A stretch of 64,000 bases of DNA from Elephas maximus indicus. Its lineage: Eukaryota > Chordata > Mammalia > Proboscidea > Elephantidae. The notes beneath the pieces are model-generated. The model saw only the letters and a list, made by a program, of their open reading frames with translations. It made no database searches and had not been told where the DNA came from. Numbering within the stretch: the stretch's first letter is position 1; each line of letters opens with the position of its first letter. The position numbers and the translations under genes are program-made. Where the stretch lies: the NCBI RefSeq assembly GCF_024166365.1, contig NC_064826.1, forward strand, positions 60,281,001-60,345,000. The letters run 5' to 3'. Shown here piece by piece: positions 17,901 to 55,563 of this stretch.

Positions 17901-20900
17901 TAAGCAACTGACACTTTTGCAAATAATATCAGCTGCAAACATGCAATGTAATCAAGATTCATCAAATGCTTGAGGCACACCAATATCATGGAAGGAAGAC
18001 AGTGAACAGATAAGCCTTGAAGAAACAATAGAGAATCAGAGTGGAAATTTTAAAATAATATCATGAGAGATAAGGAGAATAGTGCATGTGTAGGAAAAAA
18101 AGGTAATTATGAAAAAGAATTCATTGATATTGGTTTAAAAAGAGTTGAAATTAAAAGTTTCTTCAAAGTTCTATTTTTTTTAAAGTTAAACTATTGGTTA
18201 CTTAAGAGAATGAAAACGTTCTTTGAAAATATTCTTTTTGATAGAAAGCTCTGCAAATTGAGTTTAACAGTAAATCTTTGTTAATGAATAACTTCCTTTT
18301 TTATTTAAGGTGCTGCATTTTGGGATGTTATCCCTCCGAGGATTACTTTCTTGAAAAAGAAGGCATTTTTCTCCTTTTGGATTTACTAGCAGTAAGTACG
18401 CTTATAACAACTGTAAGACAAAAGGTATTTTTTATTAATCCTTTACACAATGAATACCACAGAACACTCTTCTATGAATAAAACCAAAAAACCAAACCCA
18501 CTGCTGTCAAGTCGATTCCAACTCACAGCGACCCCAAAGGGTTTCCAAGGCTGTAAATCTCTATGGAAGCAGGCTGCCACATCTTACTCTTGCAAAGCCG
18601 CTGGTGGCTTTGAACCACCAACCTTTTGGTTAGCAGTAGATTGCTTTACCCATGGGGTAAATGTAGCCCAAGTCATGTTTAAGTGTATTGTTTTAAACAG
18701 AATACCTCCTGGACATTCATAGTATGCATCAGCATATTGAAGGCTCTGAAAATTCCTCTCGTTAAGAAATCCCTTTTTTTAGATCAATGTTCCCAAACAC
18801 ATTCTAGCAGAGGATTCTTTTTCTTCCCCCCTTTGTACTTTATCAACCTTCTAAGAAGCAGTCAGCGAAATACCAGAACATATCAAAATCCCCAGTCATT
18901 TACAAATTAATTCTAGGTTTTCCCTCTGGTATTAAAAGTTAAGAGCCACAGTAGCCGGAAGGACAAAGATAAGCATTTTTTGAGAACCATATATAGTTAG
19001 GAGGTAAAGTTAAGAAGTCTAGTATGTCATGGACCATGGTTTTACTGAATGAGCAGAGGTGAGCATACTAAGCCTGTCAGTAAAGATTGTTGCCATCTAA
19101 CAGCTGAGAATAATGTCAAAGACCCTCATTGATCTTTCAAGTAATCCCTACTAGCCTCAATTCTAAGTGGGGTCCATAGTCAAGATGATGTGGGAGGAAA
19201 AATTTAATTTTGTGTCAGTAACATTTTGGAAGATTCTCACACAGAGTTCTAGCCATGTCGCTGCCTGTGACTGCTACCATCATTGATTTTATTAACAGAA
19301 TAACAAATAACAAACATACTTCGATTTAGCAGATGTACAGAAGTTGTTTGTGTCCCTTCACTTCCTGAAAGAAAATTAGTTCTAGAGATAAGAGAGCAAA
19401 CACTAATACAAAACACCACATATAAAAAATAAGTGAATAATAATGATAATAATCCATCTTGATAAACAGGAATGAATCATAACCAGAAACCCTTGGAAAG
19501 TTTAGAAAATTGAACATAATACAAGGGGATGTATGTCTAGCGCTGCCAATGTAGGACTAGATGGTGTGGCTTACAATGTTTCTCTGACTAGGGTATAGCT
19601 ATACCCAGAGCCATGTGGTGATGTGTCAGGGAATTCCCAAAGTCACAAAATTAACCTGGCACATCTTGGCTGGAACATCCCTTTTAGTTAAAGATTTGGA
19701 AGTGAGGTGTTATATTAAACATAGAAAAATTAAATAATGTAAAATTTACACTAAGGTTTAAGACTGGATAGAAGGCCTCAAAGGCATTTCCCACTTGTTC
19801 ACTGTCCTTTGCCTTTAGTGTTTCTTTGATGGAAAGGTATGAAAACAACTGGGAGGAGAGGCCAAATAGCAGAGTGGTTATGAGGATAGGCTGAAGCCAA
19901 TCTGACTGAGGCCTCCAGAATTTGTTAGCTGTGTAACTTGGGCAAATTATTTAAAAACCATGTCCCTCGGTTTCTCCATCCGTAAAACAGGGATAGTAAC
20001 AGTATCTACTTCATAGTACTAGTGGGAAGGTTAAGTGTGCAGAATGTGTGTGTGTGTGTGTATTAGAATGATGTCTGATGCATATCATTGCTATATAAGT
20101 GTTTGCTGTTATTATGATTATTATTATTAGATTGGCTTAATATGAATTGAACCAGTCAAGTTAATTACAAGTACATTTTAATGAAGTTTTTTTTTTTTTG
20201 GCTTTAACAAAGAGAAATTTATTTCTTCAGAGTAAAGTAGGCTAAAAGTCCAAATTCAAGGCATCAGCTCCAGGGGAAGGCTTTCTGTCTCTGTTGGCTC
20301 TACAAGAAGGTCCTTGTCCTCAATCTTCGCATGGTTGACAAACTTCTCAGGGGCAGGGACCCCAGGTCCAAAGGACATACTCTGATCCTGGTATTACTTT
20401 CTTGGTGGTATGAGGTCCCCAACTCTCTGCTTGCTTCCCTTCCCTTTTATCTCTTGAGAGAGAAAAGGTGGTGCAGACCACACCTCAGGGAAGCTCCCTT
20501 TACACTGGATCAGGGAAGTGACCTGAGTAAGGGTGCTGTTACAATCCCACCCTAATCCTCTTTTTTTTTTTTAATAATTTTTATTGTGCTTTAAGTGAAA
20601 GTTTACAAATCAAGTCAGTCTGTCACATGTAAGCTTATATACACACCTTACTACATACTCCCATTTACTCTCTCCCTAGTGAGTCAGCCCGCTCCCTTCT
20701 TCCAGCCTCTCCTTTCTTGACCCTTTTGCCAGTTTCTAACCCTCTCTACCCTCCCATCTCCCCTCCAGACAGGAGATGCCAATACAGTCTCAAGTGTCTA
20801 CCTGATATAAGTAGCTCACTCTTCATCAACATCTCTCTCCAGCCCATTCTCCAGTCCCTTCCATGTCTGATGAGTAGTCTTTGGGAATGGTTCCTGTCCT

Positions 20901-23900
20901 GGGCCAACAGAAGGTTTGGGGACCATGACCGCCAAGATTCTTCTAGTCTCAGTCAGACCATTAAGTCTGGTCTTTTTATGAGAATTTGGGGTCTGCATCC
21001 CACTGTTCTCCTGCTCCCTCAGGAGTTCTCTGTTGTGTTCCCTGTCAGGATAGTCATCAGTTGTGGCCAGGCACCATCTAGTTCTTCTGGTCTCAGGATG
21101 ATGTAAGTCTCTGGTTCCTGTGGCCCTTTCTGTCTCTTGGGCTCATAGTTATCCTGTGACCTTGGTGTTCTTTATTCTCCTTTGATCCAGGTGGGTTGAG
21201 ACCAATTGATGCATCTTAGATGGCCGCTTGTTAGCATTTAAGACCCCAGACACCGCACTTCTAAGTGGGATGCAGAATGTTATCATAATAGAGTTTATTA
21301 TGCCAATTGACTTAGAAGTCCCCTTAAGCCATAGTCCCCAAACCCACACCCTTGCTCCGGTGACCTTCGAAGCATTCAGTTTATCCTGGAAACTTCTTTG
21401 CTTTTGGTCCAGTCTAGTTGAGCTGACCTTCCCTGTATTGAGTATTGTCCTTCCCTTCACCTAAAGTCGTTCTTATCTACTAACTAATCAGTAAATAACC
21501 CTCTCCCACTCTCCCTCTCTCCCCCCTCTCGTAACCGCAAAAGAATGTGTTCTTCTCAGTTTATACTATTTCTCAAGAACTTAAAAAAAAAAAAAAAAAT
21601 TTTTTTTTTTTTTTATAATAGTGGTCTTATAAAGTATTTGTCCTTTTGCATCTGACTAATTTCACTCAGCATAATGCCTTCCAGGTTCCTCCATGTTATG
21701 AAATGTTTGACAGATTCGTCACTGTTCTTTATCAATGCGTAGTATTCCATTGTGTGAATGTACCATAATTTATTTAACCATTCATCTATTGATGGACACC
21801 TTGGTTGCTTCCAGCTTTTTGCTGTTGTAAACAGTGATGCAACAAACATGGGTGTACATATATCTGTTTGTGTGAAGGCTCTTATTTCTCTAGGGTATAT
21901 TCCGAGGAGTGGGATTTCTAGGTTCTATGGTAGTTCTATTTCTAACTTTTTAAGAAAATGCCAGATAGATTTCCAAAGTGGTTATACCATTTTACATTCC
22001 CACCAGCAGTGTATAAGAGTTCCAGTCTCTCTGCAGCCTCTCCAACATTTATTATTTTGTGTTTTTTGGATTAATGCCAGCCTTGTTGGAGTGAGATGGA
22101 ATCTCATCGTAGTTTTAATTTGCATTTCTCTAATGGCTAATGATCGAGAGCATTTTCTCATGTGTCTGTTAGCCGCCTGAATATCTTCTTTAGTGAAGTG
22201 CGTGTTCATATCCTTTGCCTACTTTTTGACTGGGTTGTTTGTCTTTTTGTGGTTGAGTTTTGACAGAATCATATAGATTTTAGAGATCAGGTGCTGGTCA
22301 GAGATGCCATAGGTGAAAATTTTTTCCCAATCTGCAGGTGGTCTTTTTACTCTTTTGGTGAAGTCTTTAGATGAGCATAGATGTTTGATTTTTAGGAGCT
22401 CCCAGTTATCTGGTTTCTCTTCGTCATTTTTGGTAATGTTTTGTATTCTGTTTATGCCTTGTATTAGGGCTCCTAGGGTTGTCCCTATTTTTTCTTCCAT
22501 GGTCTTTATCGTTTTAGTCTTTATGTTTAGGTCTTTGATCCACTTGGAGTTAGTTTTTGTGCATGGTGTGAGGTATGGGTCCTGTTTCATGTTTTTGCAA
22601 ATGGATATCCAGTTATGCCAGCACCATTTGTTAAAAAGACTATCTTTTCCCCAATTAACTGACACTGGACCTTTGTCAAATATCAGCTGCCCATACATGG
22701 ATGGATTTATATCTGGGTTCTCAATTCTGTTCCATTGGTCTATGTGTCTGTTGTTGTACCAATACCAGGCTGTTTTGACTACTGTGGCTGTATAATATGT
22801 TCTAAAATCAGGTAGAGTGAGGCCTCCCACTTTCTTCTTCTTTTTCAGTAATGCTTTACTTATCCGGGGCTTCTTTCCCTTCTGTATGAAGTTGGTAATT
22901 TGTTTCTCCATCACTTTAAAATATGTCATTGGAATTTGGATCAGAAGTGCATTGTATGTATAGATGGCTTTTGGTAGAATAGACATTTTTACTATGTTAA
23001 GTCTTTCTATCCATGAACAGGGTATGTTTTTCCACTTATGTAGGTCCGTTTTAGTTTCTTGCACTAGTACTTTGTAGTTTTCTTTGTATAGGTCTTCTAC
23101 ATCTTTGGTAAGATTTATTCCTAAGTATTTTATCTTCTTGGGGGCTACTGTGAATGGTATTGATTTGGTGATTTCCTCTCCGATGTTCTTTTTGTTGATG
23201 TAGAGGAATCCAAGTGATTTTTGTATGTTTATCTTGTAACCTGAGACTCTGCCAAACTCTTCTATTAGTTTCAGTAGTTTTCTGGAGGATTCCTTAGGGT
23301 TTTCTGTGTATAAGATCATGTCATCTGCAAATAGAGATAATTTTAATTCTTCCTTGCCAATCCAGATGCCCTTTATTTCTTTGTCTAGCCCAATTGCTCT
23401 GGCTAGGACCTCTAGCACAATGTTGAATAAGAGCGGTGATAAAGGGCATCCTTGTCTGGTTCCCGTTCTCAAGGGAAATGCTTTCAGGCTCTCTCTATTT
23501 AGAGTGATGTTGGCTGTTGGCTTTGTATACATGCCCTGTATTATGTTGAGGAATTTTCCTTCAATTCCTATTTGGCTGAGAGTTTTTATCATAAATGGGT
23601 GTTGGACTTTGTCAAATGCCTTTTCTGCATCAATTGATAAGATCATGTGGTTTTTGTCTTTTGTTTTATTTATATGGTGGATTACATTAATGGTTTTTCT
23701 AATATTAAACCAGCCTTGCATACCTGGTATAAATCCCACTTGGTCGTGGTGGATTATTTTTTTGATATGTTGTTGAATTCTATTGGCTAGAATTTTGTTG
23801 AGGATTTTTGCATCTATGTTCATGAGGGATATAGGTCTATAATTTTCTTTTTTTGTGATGTCTTTACCTGGTTTTGGTATCAGGGAAATGGTGGCTTCAT

Positions 23901-26900
23901 AGAATGAGTTAGGTAGTATTCCGTCATTTTCTATGCTTTGAAATACCTTTAGTAGGAGTAGTGTTAACTCTTCTCTGAAAGTTTGGTAGAACTCTGCAGT
24001 GAAGCCATCGGGCCAGGGCTTTTTTTTTGTTGGAAGTTTTTTGATTACCGTTTCAATCTCTTTTTTTATTATGGGTCTATTTAGTTGTTCTACTTCTGAT
24101 TGTGTTAGTTTAGGTAGGTAGTGTTTTTCCAGGAATTCATCCATTTCTTCTAGGTTTACAAATTTGTTAGAGTACAATTTTTTGTAATAATCTGATATGA
24201 TTCTTTTAATTTCAGTTGGGTCTGTTGTGATATGGCCCATCTCATCTCTTATTCAGGTTGTTTGTTTCCTTTCCTGTATTTCTTTAGTCAGTCTGGCCAA
24301 TGGTTTATCAATTTTGTTAATTTTTTCAAAGAACCAGCTTTTGACTTTGTTAATTCTTTCAATTGTTTTTCTGTTCTCTAATTCATTTAGTTCAGCTCTA
24401 ATTTTTATTATTTGTTTTCTTCTGGTGCCTGATGGATTCTTTTGTTGCTCGCTTTCTATTTGTTCAAGTTGTAGGGACAGTTCTCTGATTTTGGCTCTTT
24501 CTTCTTTTTGTATGTGTGCATTTATCAATATAAATTGACCTCTGAGCACTGCTTTTGCTGTGTCCCAGAGGTTTTGATAGGAAGTGTTTTCATTCTCGTT
24601 GCATTCTATGAATTTCTTTATTCCCTCCTTTATGTCTTCCATAACCCAGTCTTTTTTGAGCAGGGTATTGTTCAGTTTCCAAGTATTTGATTTCTTTTCC
24701 CTGATTTTTCTGTTACTGATTTCCACTTTTATGGCCTTGTTGTCTGAGAAGATGCTTTGTAATATTTCGATGTTTTGGATTCTGCAAAGGTTTGTTTTGT
24801 GACCTAACGTGATCTATTCTAGAGAATGTTCCATGTGCACTAGAAAAAAAAGTATATTTTGCAGCTGTTGGGTGGAGTGTTCTGTATAGGTCTATGAGGT
24901 CAAGTTGGTTGATTGTAGCAATTAGGTCTTCTGTATCTCTATTGAGCTTCTTACTGGAAGTCCTGTCCTTCTCCGAAAGTGGTATGTTGAAGTCTCCTAC
25001 TGTAATTGTGGAGGTGTCTGTCTCACTTTTCAGTTCTGTTAAAGTTTGTTTTATGTATCTTGCAGCCCTGTCATTGGGTGCATAAATGTTTAATATGGTT
25101 ATATCTTCCTGGTCAATTGTCCCTTTAATCATTATGTAGTGTCCTTCTTTATCCTTTGTGGTGGATTTAACTTTGAAGTCTATTTTGTCAGAAATCAATA
25201 TTGCTACTCCTGCTCTTTTTTGATTGTTGTTTGCTTGATATATTTTTTTCCATCCTTTGAGTTTTAGTTTGTTTGTGTCTCTAAGTCTAAGGTGTGTCTC
25301 TTGTAGGCAGCATGTGGATGGATCGTGTTTCTTTATCCAGTCTGAGACTCTCTGTTTCTTTATTGGTGCATTTAGTCCATTTACATTCAGTGTAATTATA
25401 GATAAGAATGTGTTTAGTGCTGTCATTTTGATGCCTTTTTGTGTGTGTTGTTGACAGTTTCATTTTTCCACTTACTTTTTTGTGCTGAGATGTTTTTCTT
25501 TGTAAATTGTATGTTCCTCATTTTCCTAGTAGTCGAATTTATGTTTGCTGAGTCGTTATGTTTTTCTTGGGTTTTATTTTGAGTTATGGAATTGTTAGAC
25601 CTCTTTGTGGTTACCTTAATATCTGCCGCTATTTTTCTAAGTAAAAACCTAACTTGTATCGTCCTATATCGCCTTGTTTTCCTCTCCATCTGGCAGTTCA
25701 GTGCCTCCTGTATTTAGTCCCTCTTTTTGATTATTGTGATCTTTTACATAATGACTTCAATGATTCCCTGTTTTGAGTATTTTTTTCTTTTTAAAATTAA
25801 TCTAATTTGTTTTTGTGATTTCCTTATTTGAGTTGATATCAGGATGTTCTGTTCTGTGACCTTGTATTGTGTTGTTATCTGATGATATTGATTTTCTGAC
25901 CAAACAATTTCCTTTAGTATTTCTTGTAGCTTTGGTTTGGTTTTTGCAAATTCTCTAAGCTTGTGTTTATCTGTAAGTGTTTTAATTTCGCCTTCATATT
26001 TGAGAGAGAGTTTTGCTGGATAAATGATCCTTGGGTGGAAGTTTTTCTCCTTCAGTGCTTTATATATGTCATCCCATTGCCTTCTTGACTGCATGGTTTC
26101 TGCTGAGTAGTCTGAACTTATTCTTATTGATTCTTCTTTGTTGGAGAGCTTTCTTTTATCCCTGGCTGCTTTTAAAATTTTCTCTTTATCTTTGGTTTTG
26201 GCAAGTTTGATGATAATATGTCTTGGTGATTTTCTTTTTGGATCAGTCTTAAATGGGGTTCGATGAGCATCTTGGATAGGTATCCTTTTGTCTTTCGTGA
26301 TGTCAGGGAAGTTTTCTGCCAACAGATCTTCAGCTATTCTGTCTGTATTTTCTGTTATCCCTCCTTGTTCTGGAACACCAATCACACACAAGTTATTCTT
26401 CTTGATAGAGTCCCACATGATTCTTAGGGTTTCTTCATTTTTTTTAATTCTTTTATCTGATTTTTCTTCAGCTATATTGGTGTCAATTGCTTTATCCTCC
26501 ATCTCCCCCACTCTGCATTCCAATTCCTCAATTCTGCTCCTCTGACTTCCTATTGAGTTGTCTAATTCTGTAATCTTCTGGATTTCTGAATGCTGTCTCT
26601 CTATGGATTCTTGTAGCTTATTAATTTTTCCACTATGTTCTTGAATAATCTTTTTTATTTCTTCAACTGCTTTATCAGTTTGTTCCTTGGCTTTTTCTGT
26701 AGATTGCCTTATTTCATTTCTGAGGTCATCCCCGATGTCTTGAAGCATGCTGTAAATTAGTTTTTTATATTCTGTATCTGGCAATTCCAGGATTGTATCT
26801 TCATTTGGGAAAGATTTTGAATCTTTAATTTGGGGAGTTGTAGAAGCAATCATGGTCTGCTTCTTTACGTGGTTTGATATCGACTGTTGTCCCTGAGCCA

Positions 26901-29900
26901 TCTATAAGATATTGTAATGGTTTATTTTATATTTGCTCACTGAGACTTATCTTGTTTTGTTTTCTTTCAGTGTACGTAAATGGGCTACTAGATTGCCCTG
27001 TCTTGATTGTTGTAGGCTTTGAATCACTTGTGTCCTCTTACCAGCTGGTTTGGGCCATTACCAGAAATATAAGCCTAAGAGTCCATTCACTATTCTTGAG
27101 TGGAATCTGATTTTGGGTCACCAAGTGTGTGAGGTAGACTGTCACCTATTCGCTTAGAGGAGTAGTGGTGATAGTTGTGTGCACCAGATTCTAGTAGCAG
27201 CAGGGGGTCACATTCCAGGGGGGGCAGGATGCTGACAGGCTTCCCCCAAGTGCCAGTGAGGTAGGTGTGTCTCTATTCCTAAAGCACTTTGGTTGGTGGG
27301 CTCTGCAGCTGTACCTTAGGCACCCAGTGCATGTACCTCTACAGATTGGTAGATGTCACTATCCTCAGACCCCTGTGGCAGGAGGTTAGGTGGTTTGGGT
27401 GGAGCTTCAGCCCTCAGTTCCCTGTTGTGGGTCAGTGAGGGCTCTGTTTAATAGGTGGAGATATCAGACCTGGGAAACTTGTTTTTCCAGTAATCCACTA
27501 AAACAGTTACAGTGAGATCCCTATCAGAATTGCCTTTGCATTATAATAGCCACCTTGTTCCCTGTAGGGATGAAAGCCCGAGACTGTGGATCTCAAATGC
27601 TTGGCTGGAGCTGGCTCTGTATTTTTAGTCCAATTTTGGGAAGTCAGGGAAGGATTCTTGGTCCCTGGGTTTTTTGTAGCTGCTTTTCTTTCAAGCCAGG
27701 AGAATGGATTAGGAAAAGACAAAACAAACAAAGAAAAAAAAATCCTCAGAGCACTTCACTCTCTGGCCCAGGAAATTCCAATGTTAATGAAGCTGCCTGG
27801 GAAGGGGAGGGGAGGGATCAGATAGATAGGAGAGAGTAGCACCCTGGAATATAGACAAAGTTTCTTATCTTGCTGGGATGACTGTTTTATCTGAGATTCC
27901 CAAGGGGCACGTGGACTGTGTGCACTGGCTGGGTAGAGATTGCCTCTGAGGGTCAGGCCTGCGTCCCGTGCTTGCGCTGTCTCAGGAGCCATGGTTAGTT
28001 CCTCTGCTCCCAGTCCAAAGCCGAGCACCAAGGTTCCCTGGCTGGGACACCGCACTCCAGGCTCCAAAACCAGTCACTGCCTCCTGGTAACTTCTCCTCC
28101 TGTCAGCCGCGTCGCTGCGCTGCCTTCGTGCACTGGCTGGGCTTCCCCCGAGGTCACTTCTGTGGGCTAGGGCTGCTTCCTGTGTTTGCTTTAATGAAGT
28201 TTTTATATCAACTTGGTCCTTGTCATTTGCCTCCTTCTCTAGAAAATAAAGTACAGGAATAAAAACTCAAAGCTTCTGATTATTACCATTCTGTTTAAAT
28301 ATTTATTTAGTGTGCACTGATAATAATTGCTAATAATGGCTAAGTGTTATTGTGGGCTTATTATGTGCCAGGCAATCTCATGTAACTCTTCATACTAACC
28401 CTCTGATGCAGGTAATACCCTTCATTTTATAAGAGGAAATTGATAATGTGTTGCAATACAAACAAAACATTACATGTTTCCTTTGCTATATTCTATTAGC
28501 AGTAAACTATAAGAATTAGTCAACAAGAAGTATTTCACGTAGAAACTGTTACTATGTGGAAGCCGTTGCTCTGGATGGAATTTTTTATACCTAAATTTTG
28601 GTTTGGTGAAAACTAGTTGTAGAAAAACAAAGAAAATATGCTTGATAATAAGAATTTTCCTTAAGTGCTTTCTTATGGCTGCTGGTATTCAAAATATTTA
28701 TAAAATTATACCTGATTTGTTTTATTTTTGTATGTGGCTATGACTTGCAGCCACCATTAGTTATTTTCTTAATAGCAATGAAGTTATAGCTAATAAGAGT
28801 CTTTACAGACTAGAATAAAGCATGTAAATTTGAAAGATCCTATAATTACAGTGCACTGTATATAACACTGTTGACCTTGCCGCACTTAAACACCTTCACT
28901 TGTTTTTGCAAATCTCCCTTCTCCAAATCAAAAAATTAATTACACTTTTGGTCATGACATTTGTTTAAGACTGCCTCAGGGCTGTATTGAATCTGTTTCC
29001 TTTTTATCCTTTTGAATTTCTAATATTTAAAAATGTACTCATTACAGTGGGCATCTCCTTTATAGGATGTTGTTCCAAATCTTATTTAATTAGACTCAGA
29101 GTTTTATAAGGCAAACATTTAGAAGTAATTTATTCATAATGCAAGTTTTTTTTTTTTTGAAGGCAATATTTCTTGCAACTTTTTTCCTTTTCTGTTTCCT
29201 TTCTGTAGCTGAACCAAAAAAAATTCTGTAATCTAATACTTGGAATAATGGTTGAATTTTGTGATAATCCCAAAACTACAGCTCATGTCAATGCTTGGCG
29301 AGGGAAGAAGAACCAGACAGCTGCTAGCCTTTTAATTAAATTGTGGAGAAAAGAAGAAAAAGAACTAGGAGTAAAGCGTGATAAAAATGGGAAGATAATA
29401 GGTAAGTGTATCTGTAATTGTTGGCCGATGCAATTCCATGAATATCTTCAAAAGAGAATTTTAAAAGACACTTGGAAAGTATGAGGACTGTCACCCCTTT
29501 GTCTAAAGTTCTTTCACAGGGTTTGAAAACTTGCAATCATAAATTCTGAGTGATTAGGAAAAAACTAAGTAAATTACTAGCAGGTTCATATTTTTATAGA
29601 ATATTGTTAAGAAATGGTATTTGATTATATTCTTTAACACAAAAAAACTAACAGTACCTCCTGAAGAAATTTCTTTGGGCTCCCTTTTACTTACGCAGGT
29701 ATTGAGTAATGTTTCATTTACCAATAAAATTTTGGGATGTAAATAGAGTGCTTTGAAAACAGTTTTTATAGTATTTTGTACATCCTTGCTGATATTTGTT
29801 TACACAATTATTTTTTACTATGAGAGAAGAAATTATTTTCTAAATAAAAATAAACTCAAATGTTCCTAAATTTTAATTCCTGGATTCTAAATTAATGGGA

Positions 29901-35900: not shown

Positions 35901-37456
35901 AAAGGTCTTCTCAACTTTAGCTACAAAATATCCTCAGAACCTCTGTCATATTTAAAGAATAGTTAATGAAAATCAGCCTCTGCCCTTTCAGATCATTTGT
36001 TATGTCGCATTTCACCTATTTTAGTGCAACTACTGCATTTGAATATAACTGCGACAAATTATATGGTTTATATTGTTCTGAATATTTGACACATTTAAGT
36101 GTGCTGAATTAGTATTTATGTAAAATATATTGAAAATAGGCATCACCTGATGTAAATTAGTAGCTTTGTATAACATGCTAAAAATTGAACCTAATTTCTT
36201 TAGTACCTGCTTTACTCTTTGGTCCTATATGACTGGTACCCTGGGAAATCTCAGTAACATTTTCTGGTAAGTGGCGATTCTTCAGTGCACCAACGATATA
36301 ACGTGCCAGCAACTGTCTTTCACCTAAATGAGTAACTGCAAATTCCAGGGCTACCTAATCAACTGCCACCATAAGACAGACACAATTAAAAGTATTTTGT
36401 ATATCTCAATGTAAGTAGCATAGTTTACTAGAAATTAATCTTATTTTCTTCCTAATTTAAAAATCTTCAGAAAGCAAAAAGGCTTCAGGAAAAAGCCATA
36501 GAATCCTCTAGACAAAATGAGCGACCACAAAATGCAGTATTTCATCGGACAGAGATTAAAGGCCTTAACACAACGGTAAGATTTTTTTTTTCTCCCTAAC
36601 TCTTCTTTTTGGAAACTCTGGTGGCATAGTGGTTAAGAGCTACAGCTGCCAGCCAAATGGTTGGCAGTTTGAATCTACCAGGTGCTCCTTGGAAACTCTA
36701 TGGGGCAGTTCTACTCTGTCCTGTAGAGTCACTGTGAGTCAGAATTGACTCAACGGCAACGGGTTTTGTTTTTCTTTTTTTTTTTTTTTTTAACTCTTCT
36801 TAATAGATATTAAATTTAGTCCCCAAAGAATGTTATTTCTACAGGGGTTTCATCTCTTTTTTTTTTACTATTCAGATTTCACAGAGTTCAGGCATATCAA
36901 TCTCTAAGGTACATCCACCCTCACCCAGTGCTGGTCTACACCAGAACTAGCACTCTGGGATGGCCATAAAGTGCTACAAGCACTAAGTCAGAATATATCC
37001 CTGCAGGTCTTTAACAGCAAATATGTGGTGCTGCCTATGCCTGGCAAAAATGGATCCATGCCATACTCCAGGGTTTCTAGCGTTGTCTTCTGGGCATAAT
37101 TTGCACCAGGTTGCACAGCTGATTGATAAGCAGTAGAAGTAGAACGCAGACCCACTTTTACTGGCTCCAAAGCTCCTAATCTTTGCATTATGCCATGCCG
37201 CATAAGCTGAAGGGTGGAATGAATTTTTTCCTTACTGAAGAAAGTTTTAAATGGACTTTTAGATATTTACATTTTACTTTTTTAGGTTTCTTCTGGTCGG
37301 GTAGTAACAGTGGAAAGCACTCCTGCCCGAATAATAGGAGGACCCCTGGCTGACACAGATATTGCCCTTAAAAAACTGCCTATTCGAGGAGGAGCCTTGC
37401 AGAGGGTGAAAGCAGTTAAAACCATAGATGAGCCAAAGAAGAGCAATCTGACATGA
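2898..37456 (+). CDS. CFAP69: CFAP69, C-terminal 613 codons in 14 exons (5' part outside window)
   Basis: Cilia- and flagella-associated protein 69 is a largely helical, armadillo-like protein. In mammals it is needed for sperm flagellum assembly (its loss causes multiple flagellar abnormalities and male infertility) and it acts in olfactory cilia; the algal FAP69 belongs to the central-pair apparatus. Coding exons: 2898-2946, 3043-3164, 6458-6674, 8664-8828, 12838-12956, 14529-14647, 18310-18391, 29209-29401, 30583-30720, 31304-31380, 31978-32175, 35048-35134, 36471-36575, 37286-37456. All introns are GT-AG, phases join without a break, and the sum is 1842 nt including TGA. The joined protein closely follows the human CFAP69 C-terminus as I know it, from ESGFTQDL to the final KKSNLT. 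The human protein has about 941 residues, so roughly the first third lies to the left. No frameshift or early stop is seen, so the gene looks functional. Confidence 0.97.
3043..3164 (+). CDS. CFAP69: CFAP69 coding exon B
   Basis: The 122-nt exon has a pyrimidine-rich acceptor (TTTTTCCCCACAG) and donor ACAG|GTAAAG. It encodes [15 protein letters not shown] through LCKDLSTIQ, a predicted helical part of the armadillo-like array. It enters in phase 1 and ends in phase 0. The intron before it is only 96 nt. Confidence 0.96.
3598..4010. repeat. MIR fragments
   Basis: Two MIR-like pieces: one with CTCACAACAGCTCTGTGAG (3598-3750) and one with CACTTTCTAGCTATGTGGTC, CATCTTCAAAATGGGGATAA and CTACCTCATGGGATTATTGTGAGG (3835-4010). 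The second is a near-complete sense MIR. Confidence 0.82.
4060..4257 (-). mobile_element. AfroSINE, longer subfamily
   Basis: Reverse copy, tail complement TCAGTCTTTGATTCATGGTG, body with GCTGTAATCTTTATGGAAGC as in 18482-18660. It is diverged. Confidence 0.8.
4258..4425 (+). mobile_element. RTE 3' end fragment
   Basis: The last 165 bp of an RTE element (AGACGGACTGACACAATAGC, AAGATGGTGCAGGACAGGGC) ending GAACTAACAATCACAAC. Confidence 0.82.
4690..4865. repeat. MIR/L2-like fragment
   Basis: The phrases CAGTTCACAGAGTATTTAAA and GGAAATTAAGGCTGAGAGAGG fit a mammalian-wide SINE core. Family not certain. Confidence 0.6.
4894..5676 (+). mobile_element. RTE (BovB-like) 3' end with target duplication
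   Basis: A 5'-truncated insertion: [40 protein letters not shown], then broken frames including [16 protein letters not shown]. The end is GACACCTAACAATAACAAC. ATTCTCAACT at 4884-4893 and 5677-5686 is an exact target duplication. It contains no active reverse transcriptase motif. Confidence 0.93.
6458..6674 (+). CDS. CFAP69: CFAP69 coding exon C
   Basis: The 217-nt exon runs from acceptor TTTCTCTTAG to donor GAAG|GTGAGT. It encodes [17 protein letters not shown] through [13 protein letters not shown]. The frame stays open past the donor to 6769 because a copied piece of the next exon follows (see the repeat at 6691). The donor at 6675 is the one that keeps frame with the next exon. Confidence 0.96.
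6691..6775 (+). repeat. Partial copy of CFAP69 exon D end plus its donor, inside the preceding intron
   Basis: Bases 6691-6739 match 8792-8840 at 44 of 49 positions, counted by eye, and similarity continues with small gaps for some 40 bases. The match covers the last 37 bases of exon D (8664-8828), the GT donor and the start of its intron. The copy starts 17 bases after the donor of exon C. In the frame used by exon D it is still open ([12 protein letters not shown]), and its CAG|GTAAAA donor at 6727/6728 is intact. Using that donor for exon C would shift frame and meet a TGA within four codons of exon D. Confidence 0.88.
7078..7165. repeat. L2-like fragment
   Basis: CATTCATTCAACAAATATTT, then GCCTACTAGGTATCAGGTAC, typical of an L2 end. 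Confidence 0.65.
7290..8560 (+). mobile_element. Old L1 (L1M-type) 3' fragment with SINE insertions
   Basis: Degenerate L1 ORF2 C-terminal sequence followed by 3' UTR. It is recognisable from the segment reading like [12 protein letters not shown] near 7350 and from the classic 'wait for the first tens of bases of plain ORF2, then AT-rich tail' layout. Many stops and indels mark it as ancient. It is interrupted by an AfroSINE at 7664-7795 and a short SINE tail at 8309-8343. It fills most of the intron between CFAP69 exons C and D. Confidence 0.7.
7664..7795 (+). mobile_element. AfroSINE, 5'-truncated
   Basis: The copy begins within the tRNA-like head (GCTGCTAACCAAAAGGTCAG, B-box region) and runs through the body (GGGGCAGTTCTGCTCT) to the tail CTATGAGTCGGAATCGACTC and a GGGTTTTTGG end. 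The A-box half is missing. Confidence 0.9.
8664..8828 (+). CDS. CFAP69: CFAP69 coding exon D
   Basis: The 165-nt exon lies between acceptor TTTTTCCTCACAG and donor ATAG|GTAAAA. It encodes [20 protein letters not shown] through [12 protein letters not shown]. Entry and exit are both phase 1, so the exon is symmetrical and could be skipped or duplicated without a frame shift. Its 3' end has a partial copy at 6691. Confidence 0.97.
9086..9242 (-). mobile_element. AfroSINE
   Basis: Reverse-oriented full-length copy. The tail complement (CCATCGAGTTGATTCCAACT) is at the left and the tRNA-like head complement (CTTAACCGCTGTGCCAC) at the right. Confidence 0.92.
9268..9790 (+). mobile_element. L1 3' UTR fragment, 5'-truncated
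   Basis: This matches the L1 3' UTR seen at 15604-16060, starting AGATTAGTCCAAAG, through CAGTACAACTAGATGGTGCC and TTAGACAGGCACATAAAAC, to CTAAAGTACAATAAAAATAA. It is also the reverse complement of the 3' UTR of the big L1 at 20562-21612, so it belongs to the same Afrotherian L1 lineage. Confidence 0.88.
9791..12837. other. CFAP69 intron D, remaining sequence
   Basis: Apart from the AfroSINE at 10023-10189 this stretch shows no coding exon with good splice sites. There is a poly-A run near 10257-10275. The ORFs near 11.0-11.4 kb and 12.0-12.3 kb lack any recognisable protein family and read like chance frames. Some of 10.9-11.5 kb looks like a very old repeat, which I could not assign. Confidence 0.5.
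10023..10189 (-). mobile_element. AfroSINE with 11-bp target duplication
   Basis: Full-length reverse copy, tail complement at left and tRNA-like head complement (CCACTGTATCACCAGGGC) at right. It is flanked by ACATACATATT at 10012-10022 and 10190-10200, an exact target-site duplication, so it is a relatively young insertion. Confidence 0.93.
12838..12956 (+). CDS. CFAP69: CFAP69 coding exon E
   Basis: The 119-nt exon starts after ATACCAG and ends at GGAAG|GTATGT. It encodes [20 protein letters not shown] through [12 protein letters not shown]. It enters in phase 1 and ends in phase 0. Confidence 0.97.
13060..13715 (-). mobile_element. Old L1M 3' fragment
   Basis: Reverse-oriented L1 3' UTR and ORF2 end. 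Typical complement phrases are present, such as TCTATTGATGGACATT-like (CCCATTGATGGACATTGAG) and GGAGTAGAATTGCCAGGTC. It is heavily diverged, with no open frame. Confidence 0.8.
14529..14647 (+). CDS. CFAP69: CFAP69 coding exon F
   Basis: The 119-nt exon runs from acceptor CTTCTTAAACAG to donor TCTG|GTGAGT. It encodes [18 protein letters not shown] through [10 protein letters not shown], with the tryptophan codon split 2+1. It starts in phase 0. Confidence 0.97.
15326..16085 (+). mobile_element. L1 3' UTR, 5'-truncated
   Basis: About 760 bp of L1 3' UTR, longer than the related copy at 9268. It starts near AACTGGGGAAACCAGC and ends in an A-rich tail (GTTAAAATAAATAAATATA). Flanks AATATACACAGACAA (left) and AATATATATAGACAA (right) look like an imperfect target-site duplication. 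Confidence 0.85.
16740..17345 (-). mobile_element. Old L1M 3' fragment split by an AfroSINE
   Basis: Reverse L1 3' UTR/ORF2 end with typical complement sequence (CACCGTGTAGTATTCCACAG near 17300). It is interrupted at about 16905-17068 by a reverse AfroSINE. The order of insertion is therefore L1 first, SINE later. Confidence 0.75.
16903..17068 (-). mobile_element. AfroSINE, well preserved
   Basis: Full-length reverse copy (CCGTCAAGTCGATTCCGACT at left, CTACACCACCAGGGTTTCCC at right). ATCGAGATAT at left and ATCAAGATAC at right are a likely imperfect target duplication. The low divergence of the body suggests a younger subfamily member. Confidence 0.93.
17360..17653 (-). mobile_element. MaLR-type solo LTR fragment (MST/MLT1-like)
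   Basis: Reverse complement of an ERVL-MaLR LTR. It runs from CTGCTGGCAATCCTTGGC-type sequence through GAGGTCACATTCACAGGTA to AATTCAGTCCATAACA, whose complement is the conserved LTR start TGTTATGGACTGAATT. It contains a C11 run near 17510. Confidence 0.75.
18310..18391 (+). CDS. CFAP69: CFAP69 coding exon G
   Basis: The 82-nt exon starts after TTTTTTATTTAAG and ends at GCA|GTAAGT. It encodes [18 protein letters not shown] through LLLDLLA. It completes the split tryptophan and ends in phase 0. The intron after it (10.8 kb) holds the large L1. Confidence 0.96.
18482..18660 (-). mobile_element. AfroSINE, longer subfamily
   Basis: Reverse copy whose body contains the insert GGCTGTAAATCTCTATGGAA and ends in CCAACCTTTTGGTTAGCAG. 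The same variant is seen at 4060-4257, so at least two AfroSINE body types coexist here. Confidence 0.88.
19868..20115 (+). repeat. MIR element
   Basis: The core reads CTGTGTAACTTGGGCAAATT, then TCGGTTTCTCCATCCGTAAA and a region like TACTTCATAGTACTAGTGGG, which is the standard MIR consensus order. A (TG)n run follows at about 20047-20061. Confidence 0.85.
20200..20560 (-). mobile_element. Transduced part of a MaLR LTR
   Basis: The segment is the 3' two thirds of the same LTR family as 55056-55563 and 48639-49480, with matching phrases such as CAGCTCCAGGGGAAGG and GGGACCCCAGGTCCAAAGGA. On the minus strand it ends at an AATAAA (complement at 20218-20223) followed about 20 bases later by the poly-A. 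It begins directly after the L1 poly-A, inside the LTR. Confidence 0.88.
20575..21612 (-). mobile_element. L1 3' UTR
   Basis: About 1 kb between the ORF2 end and the L1 poly-A. Its complement matches the isolated copies at 9268 and 15326. A canonical AATAAA lies near its end (complement of TTTATT in AATTTTTATTGTGC), but the source transcript read past it. A long A/T homopolymer junction sits at 21583-21614. Confidence 0.85.
21613..25426 (-). pseudogene. L1 ORF2 (endonuclease-reverse transcriptase), inactivated
   Basis: The ORF2 protein would nick target DNA and reverse-transcribe L1 RNA. The endonuclease part starts at 25426 ([20 protein letters not shown]) with LQETHL, NIYAPN, GDFN and RIDH motifs. 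Then comes a frameshift near 24817 just after RIDH. A TGA near 24253 precedes the reverse transcriptase block 24240-22219, which keeps [21 protein letters not shown] and the FADDMILY catalytic box. A TGG-to-TAG change ends that block at 22219. The C-terminal Cys-rich part ([14 protein letters not shown]) has at least two more stops before [13 protein letters not shown] and the end at 21613. The breaks are ordinary decay, mostly C-to-T-like. Confidence 0.95.
25423..25689 (-). CDS. Open frame between L1 ORF1 and ORF2 (88 codons)
   Basis: The frame starts at ATG 25689 and ends in TGA at 25425-25423, which overlaps the ORF2 start codon as ATGA. The predicted product is basic and Lys/Asn/Thr-rich ([15 protein letters not shown], ending NNTHKKASK), with no domain that I know. 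The inter-ORF gap is 317 bp, longer than the few tens of bases usual in human L1. It may be a chance frame, or may help ribosomes reach ORF2 by stop-start coupling. Confidence 0.4.
   Translation of the reverse strand: MERKTRRYRTIQVRFLLRKIAADIKVTTKRSNNSITQNKTQEKHNDSANINSTTRKMRNIQFTKKNISAQKSKWKNETVNNTHKKASK
25744..26901 (-). CDS. L1 ORF1 protein, intact 385 codons
   Basis: ORF1p is a trimeric RNA-binding chaperone of the L1 ribonucleoprotein. Residues about 45-155 form a heptad-rich coiled coil ([32 protein letters not shown]). The RRM begins near [13 protein letters not shown], and the C-terminal domain has [32 protein letters not shown] and the conserved [20 protein letters not shown]. The length is slightly above the 338 of human L1 because of a longer coiled coil and tail. 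No stop or frameshift was found, unlike ORF2 beside it. Confidence 0.95.
   Translation of the reverse strand: MAQGQQSISNHVKKQTMIASTTPQIKDSKSFPNEDTILELPDTEYKKLIYSMLQDIGDDLRNEIRQSTEKAKEQTDKAVEEIKKIIQEHSGKINKLQESIERQHSEIQKITELDNSIGSQRSRIEELECRVGEMEDKAIDTNIAEEKSDKRIKKNEETLRIMWDSIKKNNLCVIGVPEQGGITENTDRIAEDLLAENFPDITKDKRIPIQDAHRTPFKTDPKRKSPRHIIIKLAKTKDKEKILKAARDKRKLSNKEESIRISSDYSAETMQSRRQWDDIYKALKEKNFHPRIIYPAKLSLKYEGEIKTLTDKHKLREFAKTKPKLQEILKEIVWSENQYHQITTQYKVTEQNILISTQIRKSQKQIRLILKRKKYSKQGIIEVIM
26902..28189 (-). promoter_or_regulatory. L1 5' UTR with internal promoter
   Basis: About 1.3 kb upstream of ORF1, GC-richer than the rest of the intron, with CpG clusters near its start (GCCGCGTCGCTGCGCTGCC near 28107 on +). 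It reaches the target duplication at 28190, so the 5' end appears complete or nearly so. In sense it points opposite to CFAP69, so any remaining activity would give transcripts antisense to the host gene. Confidence 0.75.
28318..28465. repeat. MIR-like fragment
   Basis: TTATTATGTGCCAGGCAATC, then CTAACCCTCTGATGCAGGTA and TTTATAAGAGGAAATTG, in MIR order. Confidence 0.7.
29209..29401 (+). CDS. CFAP69: CFAP69 coding exon H
   Basis: The 193-nt exon follows a long pyrimidine tract (TTTCCTTTCTGTAG) and ends at ATAG|GTAAGT. It encodes [19 protein letters not shown] through [10 protein letters not shown]. It starts in phase 0 and ends in phase 1. It contains the Lys-rich stretch [16 protein letters not shown]. 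Confidence 0.97.
30128..30237 (+). mobile_element. AfroSINE with internal deletion
   Basis: The tRNA-like head (GGAGCCCTGGTGGCACAGTG) joins directly to the tail (TATGGGTCGGAATCAAGTC); the middle body is missing. It is flanked by ATATAGTAAAC (30117-30127) and ATACAGTAAAC (30238-30247), a 10-of-11 target duplication, so the deletion is in this copy or its source. Confidence 0.88.
30583..30720 (+). CDS. CFAP69: CFAP69 coding exon I
   Basis: The 138-nt exon runs from acceptor CCAATGATTAG to donor CTAG|GTAAGA. It encodes [20 protein letters not shown] through KIYAVLGKL. Entry and exit are phase 1 and the length is a multiple of three. The acceptor has a poor pyrimidine tract, so skipping is conceivable and would keep frame. 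Confidence 0.96.
   Translation: MQRNLYLLVFKKNKKSCHCLPTALRLQLWMLLRISEQKFMLCWAN
30862..30975. mobile_element. MER5-type hAT DNA transposon remnant
   Basis: The phrases AATTAAATCAGAATCTCTGC, GGGCCCAGGCATCAGTATTT and CCCCAGGTAATTCCAGTGTGC match the well-known MER5A/B consensus. It is short and diverged. Confidence 0.75.
31304..31380 (+). CDS. CFAP69: CFAP69 coding exon J
   Basis: The 77-nt exon lies between ACTTTGTTTAG and AAA|GTGAGT. It encodes [19 protein letters not shown] to HRYLDFK, one of the most conserved parts of the protein. It enters in phase 1 and ends in phase 0. Confidence 0.97.
31737..31900 (+). mobile_element. AfroSINE, full length
   Basis: Sense copy from GGAGCCCTGGTGGCACAGTG with A-box and B-box (GGTTGGCAGTTCGAATAC) through CACTGTGAGTCGAAATCAAC to a (TTG)n tail. 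It ends 77 bases before the next CFAP69 exon. Confidence 0.93.
31978..32175 (+). CDS. CFAP69: CFAP69 coding exon K
   Basis: The 198-nt exon lies between TTGTTATCACAG and AAA|GTAAGC. It encodes [20 protein letters not shown] through QNEQKVYTK, rich in Glu, Lys and Gln. It is symmetrical at phase 0. Confidence 0.97.
32491..33008 (-). mobile_element. RTE (BovB-like) 3' end, left arm of an inverted pair
   Basis: The reverse complement of an RTE C-terminal coding region and 3' tail, starting with the tail complement TGTTGTTGTCAGGTGGCATT. Read on the minus strand it has the same order as 33308-33830: CACATGCATATGA, AGGAGGGACCAGTC-type and TTCTGTTGT sequence. It lies in the CFAP69 intron before exon L. 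Confidence 0.9.
33152..33830 (+). mobile_element. RTE (BovB-like) 3' end with target duplication
   Basis: A 5'-truncated RTE insertion. It reads [53 protein letters not shown], then [20 protein letters not shown] and [20 protein letters not shown], with at least two frameshifts. The end is CACCTAACAACAAC. TAGGCATA occurs at 33142-33149 and 33833-33840 as the target duplication. Confidence 0.93.
33841..35047. other. Intronic sequence without recognised elements
   Basis: No exon with matching splice sites and no repeat family I can name. The stretch 34270-34640 has few homopolymers and a more balanced base composition than its surroundings, so an old repeat or conserved non-coding element cannot be excluded. 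Confidence 0.4.
35048..35134 (+). CDS. CFAP69: CFAP69 coding exon L
   Basis: The 87-nt exon follows TTTCTCATTTCAG and ends at AAG|GTAAGT. It encodes 29 residues, [20 protein letters not shown] to AKTLK, probably one long charged helix. Phase 0 at both ends. Confidence 0.97.
35135..36470. other. Intron L, no element recognised
   Basis: AT-rich sequence between CFAP69 exons. No SINE, LINE or LTR that I can name and no splice-supported exon. The small frame at 35169-35357 has no family match. Confidence 0.5.
36471..36575 (+). CDS. CFAP69: CFAP69 coding exon M
   Basis: The 105-nt exon lies between AAAATCTTCAG and ACG|GTAAGA. It encodes [20 protein letters not shown] to TEIKGLNTT. Phase 0 at both ends. 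A SINE begins only 32 bases after its donor. Confidence 0.97.
36608..36790 (+). mobile_element. AfroSINE next to a CFAP69 splice donor
   Basis: Full-length sense copy from TTGGAAACTCTGGTGGCATA to a GGGTTTTG plus T-rich tail. It is flanked by the exact duplication TAACTCTTCTT at 36597-36607 and 36791-36801. Confidence 0.94.
37286..37456 (+). CDS. CFAP69: CFAP69 last coding exon and stop
   Basis: The 171-nt coding part follows TACTTTTTTAG and ends in TGA at 37454-37456. It encodes [39 protein letters not shown] and a basic C-terminus KKSNLT. The tail is proline/lysine-rich and conserved with the human protein. Confidence 0.97.
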   Translation, partial: VSSGRVVTVESTPARIIGGPLADTDIALKKLPIRGGALQRVKAVKTIDEPKKSNLT

Positions 37457-48401: not shown

Positions 48402-49800
48402 TTTTTTTAATGTATGTATAATTTATTTTGTTGTTGACAATATATACACAGCAGAACATAACACCAATTCAACAATTTCTACATGTACAATTCAGTGACA
48501 TTTATTACATTCTTCAAGTTGTGCAACCATTCTCATCCTTTTCTGAGTTGTTCCTCCCCCATTAACTCACTGTCCCTTAAGGTTCCTATCTAAACTTCCA
48601 AGTTGTGGTTGTCAACTTGATCCCATGTAGATAGTTCTTGTCATGGATTAGACTGTGTCCCCCAACAATATGTATCAAATTGGCTAGGCCATGATTGATT
48701 CCTAGTATTATGTGGTTGTCCTCCATTTTGTGATCTGATTATCCTCCATTTTGTGATGTGTTGTAAATGCTAACCTATATGCCTGTGGTTATGGTCCCAT
48801 TTGGGAATGAGCGGTCTGTTATGTTAATGAGAATTAGGTTATGTTCGTTACCGTTAATGAGGTAGGATTTGGTTGGGATGTATCTTGAGTCATCGCCCTT
48901 CACTGAGAGAGATAAAAGCAGAGAGAAGCAAGCCTAGAGAGGGGGACCTCACAACCAAGAAAGAAGAGCCAGGAGTGGAGTACGTCCTTTGGACCCAGGG
49001 TCCATGCATTGTGAACCTCCTTGACCCAGGGGAAGGTTTACACCAATGAGACAGGCAGCCTCAGAGCTCAACCCTTCTAAGAATAACCTGCTCTGGCTTA
49101 TCCTCCTGTACAGAGCAGAATAGGCCACACATTTTTCTGAAATTGTCCTAGACAAGATAACCACAGAATGGGCCATAGCTGGCTTTGGCCAGTTTTAGCA
49201 GGTTTTCAATACCATCTTGGCACTTTAAGTGACCTAATAGCTCATTAAGTGCAATATATATATAAGACACATGTAGATCTTCAAGGAACACCAGGCCTAT
49301 AGATGTTAAAAGGAGACCAAGACCTTCCCCTGGGGCCAGCAGAAAGAGAAAGCATTCCCCTAAAGCTGGCATCCTGAGTTTGGACTTCTAGCCTCCTAAA
49401 CTGTAAGAGAATAAATTTCCATTTGTTAAGACCACCAACTTGTGGTATTTCTATTATAGCAGCACTAGGTAACTAAGACAGTTCTTAAAAGAGCATAATG
49501 CTCAAGGCAGGCATTTTTTGGTAGGTAAGCTAAACTATTGTTTGGTTTTAAGAAGACTTCAGGGAATATTTTTGATTTAAGGTTTAAAGATTATTTCGGG
49601 GCAAGAGATTCTGGGAGGTCATCCAGCATCCATGGCTCCAGAAAGCTTGTAGTCCATGAGAATTTTAAATTCTGTTCTGCATTTTCCCTCTTTTGGTCAG
49701 GATACTTCTATAGAATCTTTGACCAAAATGGTCCGTAATGGTAGCCAGGCACCATCCACATCTTCTGGTCTCATGACAGTTGTTCATCTTTAGTATTTCT
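48402..49800 (-). mobile_element. L1 3' UTR copy split by a solo LTR
   Basis: Old L1 3' UTR (TTGTTGACAATATATACACA, TCAGTGACATTTATTACATT) in two pieces, 48402-48638 and 49481-49800, separated by the LTR at 48639-49480. The two pieces line up with one continuous stretch of the next copy at 49870-50720. Confidence 0.85.
48639..49480 (+). mobile_element. Solo MaLR-type LTR, 842 bp, with 5-bp target duplication
   Basis: Starts TGTCATGGATTAGACTGTGT and ends GGTAACTAAGACA. GTTCT flanks it on both sides (48634-48638, 49481-49485), as expected for an ERVL-class insertion. The AATAAA at GAGAATAAATTTCC marks its R region. It is about 330 bp longer than the LTR at 55056 because of an extra segment near 49085-49310. 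No internal viral sequence remains, so it arose by LTR-LTR recombination. Confidence 0.9.
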
Positions 49801-50945: not shown

Positions 50946-51464
50946 CCTCTTTCTCAGCCCTGGTGACCACTAATAAACTTTGGTCTCTATATGTTTGCCT
51001 GGTTTTGTCTTTCTATTGAAGTGAGGTCATACAATATTTGTCCTTTTGTGATTGACTCATTTCATTAGGCATAAAGTCTTTAAGCGCTATTCATGTTGCA
51101 CCATGTATCAAGACTCCGTTTCTCCTACTGGCTGAGTAGTATTCAATTGTAGGTATGTACCAAATTTTGTTTATCCGTTCATCCATTGATGAGCATTTAG
51201 GTTGCTGTAACCAACACTAGTATACGAGTGTCTGTTTGAGTCTCTGCTTTCACTTGTTTGGGGCATATACCTAGGAATGCAATTGTTGGGTCATATGAAA
51301 GTTCTGTTTTTTGTTTTTTTGAGGAACCACCACAGTTTTCTACAAAGGCTGTACCATTTTGCATTCCCACCAGCAATGGATAAGAGTTCCAATTTCTGAA
51401 CATCCTTGCCAACATTTATTATTTTCTGGATTTGTTTGTTTGTTTTGTTTTTTAGCTTAGCCAT

Positions 51465-55055: not shown

Positions 55056-55563
55056 TGTCATGGATTGAATTGTGTCCCCCGAGAATATGTGTCAATTTGG
55101 TTAGGCCATGATTTCCAGTATTGTGTTTGTCCTCCATTTTGTGATTGTAATTTTATGATAGGATTAGGGTGAGATTGTAATACCCTTACTAAGGTCAGAC
55201 CCCTGATCCAATGTAAAGGGAGTTTCCCTGGGGTGTGGCCTGCACCACCTTTTATCCTACAAGAGATAAAAGGAAAGGGAAGCAAACAGAGAGTAGGGAC
55301 CTCATAAACTACCCAGAAACAAGAGTCAGGAGAATAGTGCATCCTTTGGACCCGGGGTCCCTGCACTGAGAAGCTCCTCAACCAGGGGAAGATTGATGAC
55401 AAGAACCTTCCTCCAGAGCTGACAGAGAGAGAACACCTTCCCCTGGAGCTGACTCCCTGAATTCGGACTTGTGGCCTACTAGACTGTGAGAGAATAAATT
55501 TCTCTTTGTTAAAGCCATCCACTTTTGGAATTTCTGTTATAGCACCATTAGATAACTAAGACA
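55056..55563 (+). mobile_element. Solo MaLR-type LTR, 508 bp
   Basis: Starts TGTCATGGATTGAATTGTGT and ends GATAACTAAGACA, flanked by CCCCC on each side (55051-55055, 55564-55568). It contains TTTATC and GAGAATAAATTTC (polyadenylation signal). It is the best match in the window to the segment transduced by the L1 at 20200-20560. Confidence 0.9.

Follow-up and report, generated by a model that had tools for sequence, protein, structure and literature searches.

In the mouse, the Lama2 dy-Pas allele is described as an L1 insertion that brought along an IAP LTR by transduction and received its poly(A) within that LTR; the source is known, and the IAP had inserted into the source L1 (PMC6466679). 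In ordinary human L1 3' transduction, transcription running on to a poly(A) signal further downstream carries along sequence of up to hundreds of bases; high-confidence cases span 8–997 bp, with a median of 63, a mean of 206.4 and an upper end that is limited by the method (PMC9311842). Two RNAs, one insertion and one duplication characterise U6/L1 and other L1 RNA chimeras, where, in the cases described in PMC13174262, the foreign RNA lies 5' of the L1. HERV-W processed pseudogenes are LTR-element RNAs ending in U3-R and poly(A) that were inserted by the L1 machinery as a transcript of the LTR element alone, with no L1 attached (PMC5537654). In connection with an artificial L1-MaLR insert in the mouse, it was stated that such chimeras may stem from template switching or transduction (PMC6500023).

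The locus analysed here lies in a 64-kb stretch of DNA from the Indian elephant (the window, referred to throughout at its full length). Like the dy-Pas allele as described in PMC6466679, it combines a nearly full-length L1 with a 3' piece of an LTR inside which the inserted sequence was polyadenylated; it differs from that allele in that the LTR is MaLR-like and the parent L1 probably sat within the LTR. The length of the LTR piece, 361 nt, falls within the range of the human transductions (PMC9311842), but the segment that would have been transduced consists of repeat DNA and possesses an evolved poly(A) signal of its own. Unlike the U6/L1 chimeras of PMC13174262, in which the foreign RNA is found on the 5' side of the L1, the foreign piece is situated 3' of the L1 poly(A) and has a poly(A) of its own.

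Read in L1 sense, the insertion consists of a 15-bp repeat, a 1288-bp 5'UTR, ORF1, ORF2, a 3'UTR with AATAAA, a run of 12 A (A12), 361 bp of LTR, a run of 13 A (A13) overlapping the repeat, and the second copy of the 15-bp repeat. The repeat, TTTAATGAAGTTTTT, is an exact 15-mer with two occurrences on the plus strand of the window, one starting at 20177 (20177–20191, the copy of the target-site duplication on the element's 3' side) and the other at 28190 (28190–28204, the copy on its 5' side). At the latter, the plus-strand nick, GTTTTT/ATATC, is close to the preference of the L1 endonuclease, for which the motif TT/AAAA is given (PMC13174262). That the target duplication encloses both the L1 and the LTR part had been claimed in an earlier note on this DNA, and this was borne out. 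A chance match was ruled out as an origin of the repeat by a control in which 19,887 pairs of 40-nt segments were drawn at random from the window and none shared 15 or more exact bases, the maximum being 14. When the T-rich left segment was held fixed, 5 of 12,670 tiled segments shared at least 15 bases; all five shared 17, presumably reflecting T runs.

The flanks of the L1 alone have just 4 bp in common, as against the 15 bp around the L1 and the LTR piece together, so a non-A duplication belonging to the L1 by itself was not found. A single duplication surrounding both parts is the arrangement of an L1 3' transduction; a duplication around the LTR piece alone, if composed entirely of A, would escape this comparison. 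The earlier note had also stated that each part ends in its own poly(A), which holds: the L1 proper ends in A12 on the minus strand (20561–20572, T on the plus strand), with the L1 AATAAA beginning 13 nt before it, and the LTR piece ends in the terminal A13, likewise on the minus strand (20187–20199, T13 on the plus strand), of which as many as 5 A may be part of the target duplication. An L1 with a poly(A) of its own, then sequence foreign to the L1 and after that another poly(A) is again the layout of a transduction. A search of Rfam gave no match at the gathering score.

The partial LTR (20200–20560, minus strand) is in the sense of the L1. As a reference for its extent, a complete 508-bp LTR of the same family at 55056–55563 (plus strand) was used, which lies outside the insertion, between C runs, and has TG...CA ends; the two are identical at 296 of 363 positions (81.5%). 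On this reference, the attached piece begins at LTR position 105 and falls 46 bp short of the LTR end. Where it ends, just before A13, the related LTR has a CA, and AATAAA begins 24 nt earlier; a poly(A) signal of its own shortly before the second poly(A) is what a transduction would carry. It is well supported that this end is the cleavage point expected for an RNA using the LTR poly(A) signal.

By within-window BLAST, members of this LTR family were located at three further places, namely 55056–55563, 48639–49480 and about 1824–2097, and AATAAA is present in all four LTR copies of the window, the attached one included. The copy at 48639–49480 has TG...CA ends and GTTCT on either side, which is what the 5-bp duplication flanking a solo LTR should look like. 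It additionally contains some 275 bp of extra sequence (about 49039–49317) and has a short U3 segment in duplicate, near 48720 and 48743. The combination of TG...CA ends and a 5-bp duplication fits LTRs of the ERVL/MaLR type, without singling out MaLR, which we take to be the family of the attached piece. Of the earlier description as about 360 bp of a MaLR LTR, the size stands, now at 361 bp, and the name, drawing on LTR structure, is putative. An exact 23-nt LTR pattern had no match in the viral_contigs and genome_contigs collections, which hold no related animal genomes.

The L1 itself (20573–28189, minus strand, about 7.6 kb, with a putative 5' end) was identified as a LINE-1 by its coding regions. 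ORF1 (25744–26901, minus strand) is open over 385 aa and matches both Pfam L1 ORF1 domains, RBD and dsRBD (PF17490, E 2.6e-24; PF02994, E 2e-17). ORF2 (21603–25426, minus strand, lower boundary approximate) carries a frame change and several in-frame stops that disrupt it, and its three pieces were searched separately against Pfam: one matched the endonuclease (PF03372, E 1.6e-21), one the reverse transcriptase (PF00078, E 2.1e-46), and the third (24253–24726) had no Pfam match. The reverse transcriptase piece aligned, over residues 2–673 of 673, with solved human LINE-1 ORF2p (8uw3) with an E value of 6.5e-296. Since ORF2 is broken by the frame change and stops, this L1 copy is presumably dead.

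Three further L1 3' ends in the window, near 103, 9781 and 40907, are matched by the last 127 bp of the L1, and at none of the three did within-window BLAST place an LTR match alongside; therefore, tails of this L1 do not normally include the LTR. In the interior of the L1, near the border of ORF2 and 3'UTR, A17 is directly followed by T15 (21583–21614). An older L1 copy at 51003–51428 matches the L1 from 21603 on, a border that may be an artefact because the query was cut at 21600. A self-match search for monomers in the 5'UTR (26902–28189) yielded one weak internal repeat of 62 bp (69% identity, E 0.005), possibly a trace of monomer structure.

Elsewhere in the window, ARAGORN calls a tRNA-Ser(tga) in the tRNA-like part (36639–36728) of a segment at 36560–36950 on the plus strand. 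This segment matches 14 other places in the window with 73–92% identity, two further 19-nt matches of 100% identity that resemble A runs being left out, and because of these 14 matches it is, judging from sequence, probably a tRNA-derived SINE and not a tRNA gene.

For the insertion at 20177–28204, we consider it likely that a parent L1 lay in sense orientation within a MaLR-like LTR and took part of that LTR along by 3' transduction. We infer a parent locus, read-through and the joint arrival of the L1 and the LTR piece as follows. The parent L1 would have been situated at about LTR position 105; its RNA would have escaped cleavage at the L1's own AATAAA, continued for 361 nt and been cleaved and polyadenylated at the AATAAA of the LTR; and target-primed reverse transcription by the L1 machinery would then have placed a copy of the L1-LTR RNA at the present site, leaving one 15-bp duplication. 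This reading is favoured because one duplication encloses both parts, none was found for the L1 alone, both have the same orientation, and the second poly(A) is located at a real poly(A) site. The earlier note had proposed a 3' transduction ending at an LTR poly(A) signal; the single duplication and the end at the LTR signal agree with that proposal, which is the most likely reading, although its rivals give the same anatomy.

At the position corresponding to the junction, the 55-kb LTR reads TCCT/AT, which has 3 of 6 matches to the L1 endonuclease consensus and is equalled or bettered at 118 of 503 positions of that LTR, making it an unremarkable endonuclease site. A single G between A12 and the LTR match is without counterpart in the 55-kb LTR. 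Both findings count against a simple parental site. The parent's own LTR may have differed around the junction. The 48.6-kb and 1.8-kb copies are too diverged near the junction to reveal the parental site.

A different history would comprise two insertions, with the L1 arriving first and generating the 15-bp duplication, and an LTR-element RNA, 5'-truncated inside U3 and terminating in a poly(A) of its own, being copied later by L1 enzymes into the A-tail of the L1; the second target duplication would be invisible because it would consist only of A. From its sequence, the end of the L1, ATTATT/AAAAAAAAAAAA, would itself be a good target for the L1 endonuclease, and the copying of LTR-element RNA by L1 machinery is exemplified by the HERV-W processed pseudogenes with their U3-R and poly(A), even if HERV-W is, according to PMC5537654, the sole HERV group so mobilised. 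More demanding is that a second rare insertion must have hit precisely this tail, in matching orientation. Room in the A13 run would also be tight: it would have to accommodate a duplicated stretch of tail as well as the newly added one, besides as many as 5 A contributed by the host duplication, though tails are subject to shrinkage. On balance, two insertions are unlikely.

A chimera formed during or before reverse transcription would, like the transduction, be expected to show a single enclosing duplication. Here, an LTR-ending RNA would have been the first to prime, with the enzyme then switching to an L1 RNA at its poly(A) end; alternatively, the two RNAs would have been joined by ligation. 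Template switching and RNA ligation have both been proposed for L1 chimeras (PMC13174262), and template switching is named beside transduction for L1-MaLR chimeras (PMC6500023). Yet in the catalogue of PMC13174262 the foreign RNA is joined to the L1 on its 5' side, and 5' truncation of the L1 part is frequent among the U6 chimeras, so that the order of parts and the long L1 of the present insertion are unlike the cases described there. This counter-argument is weak because the study in PMC13174262 was designed to look at the 5' side. Visual inspection of the junction between L1 and LTR revealed no homology beyond As, which also speaks against a chimera, and we regard this origin as decidedly unlikely. 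The earlier note had adduced the start of the LTR part in mid-LTR, exactly at the L1 poly(A), as support for transduction; this argument does not discriminate, because a retrocopy into the A-tail or a template switch produces identical anatomy.

That the L1-plus-LTR unit represents a small L1 lineage that came to end at the adopted LTR poly(A) signal and kept copying in this form is very improbable. Insertion of the L1 into an LTR already resident at this site, with later loss of part of that LTR, would account for a partial LTR adjoining the L1 and was rejected as scarcely credible, since the duplication lies outside the LTR piece and not around the L1 (whose own flanks share 4 bp), the LTR terminates in A13 at its poly(A) site and not at its CA end, and the 5' part of the LTR was not found beyond 28190, a search with the full LTR at E values up to 1e-3 matching only itself and the three other loci.

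Transduction of an LTR piece by an L1 is a process that is already known, with a direct precedent in the mouse, and the elephant insertion is a good but ordinary example of it. It provides a clean instance of an L1 capturing an LTR poly(A) signal, a single case that agrees with known biology. If several such copies existed, this would suggest that L1 read-through naturally comes to an end in LTRs, which bring signals of their own.
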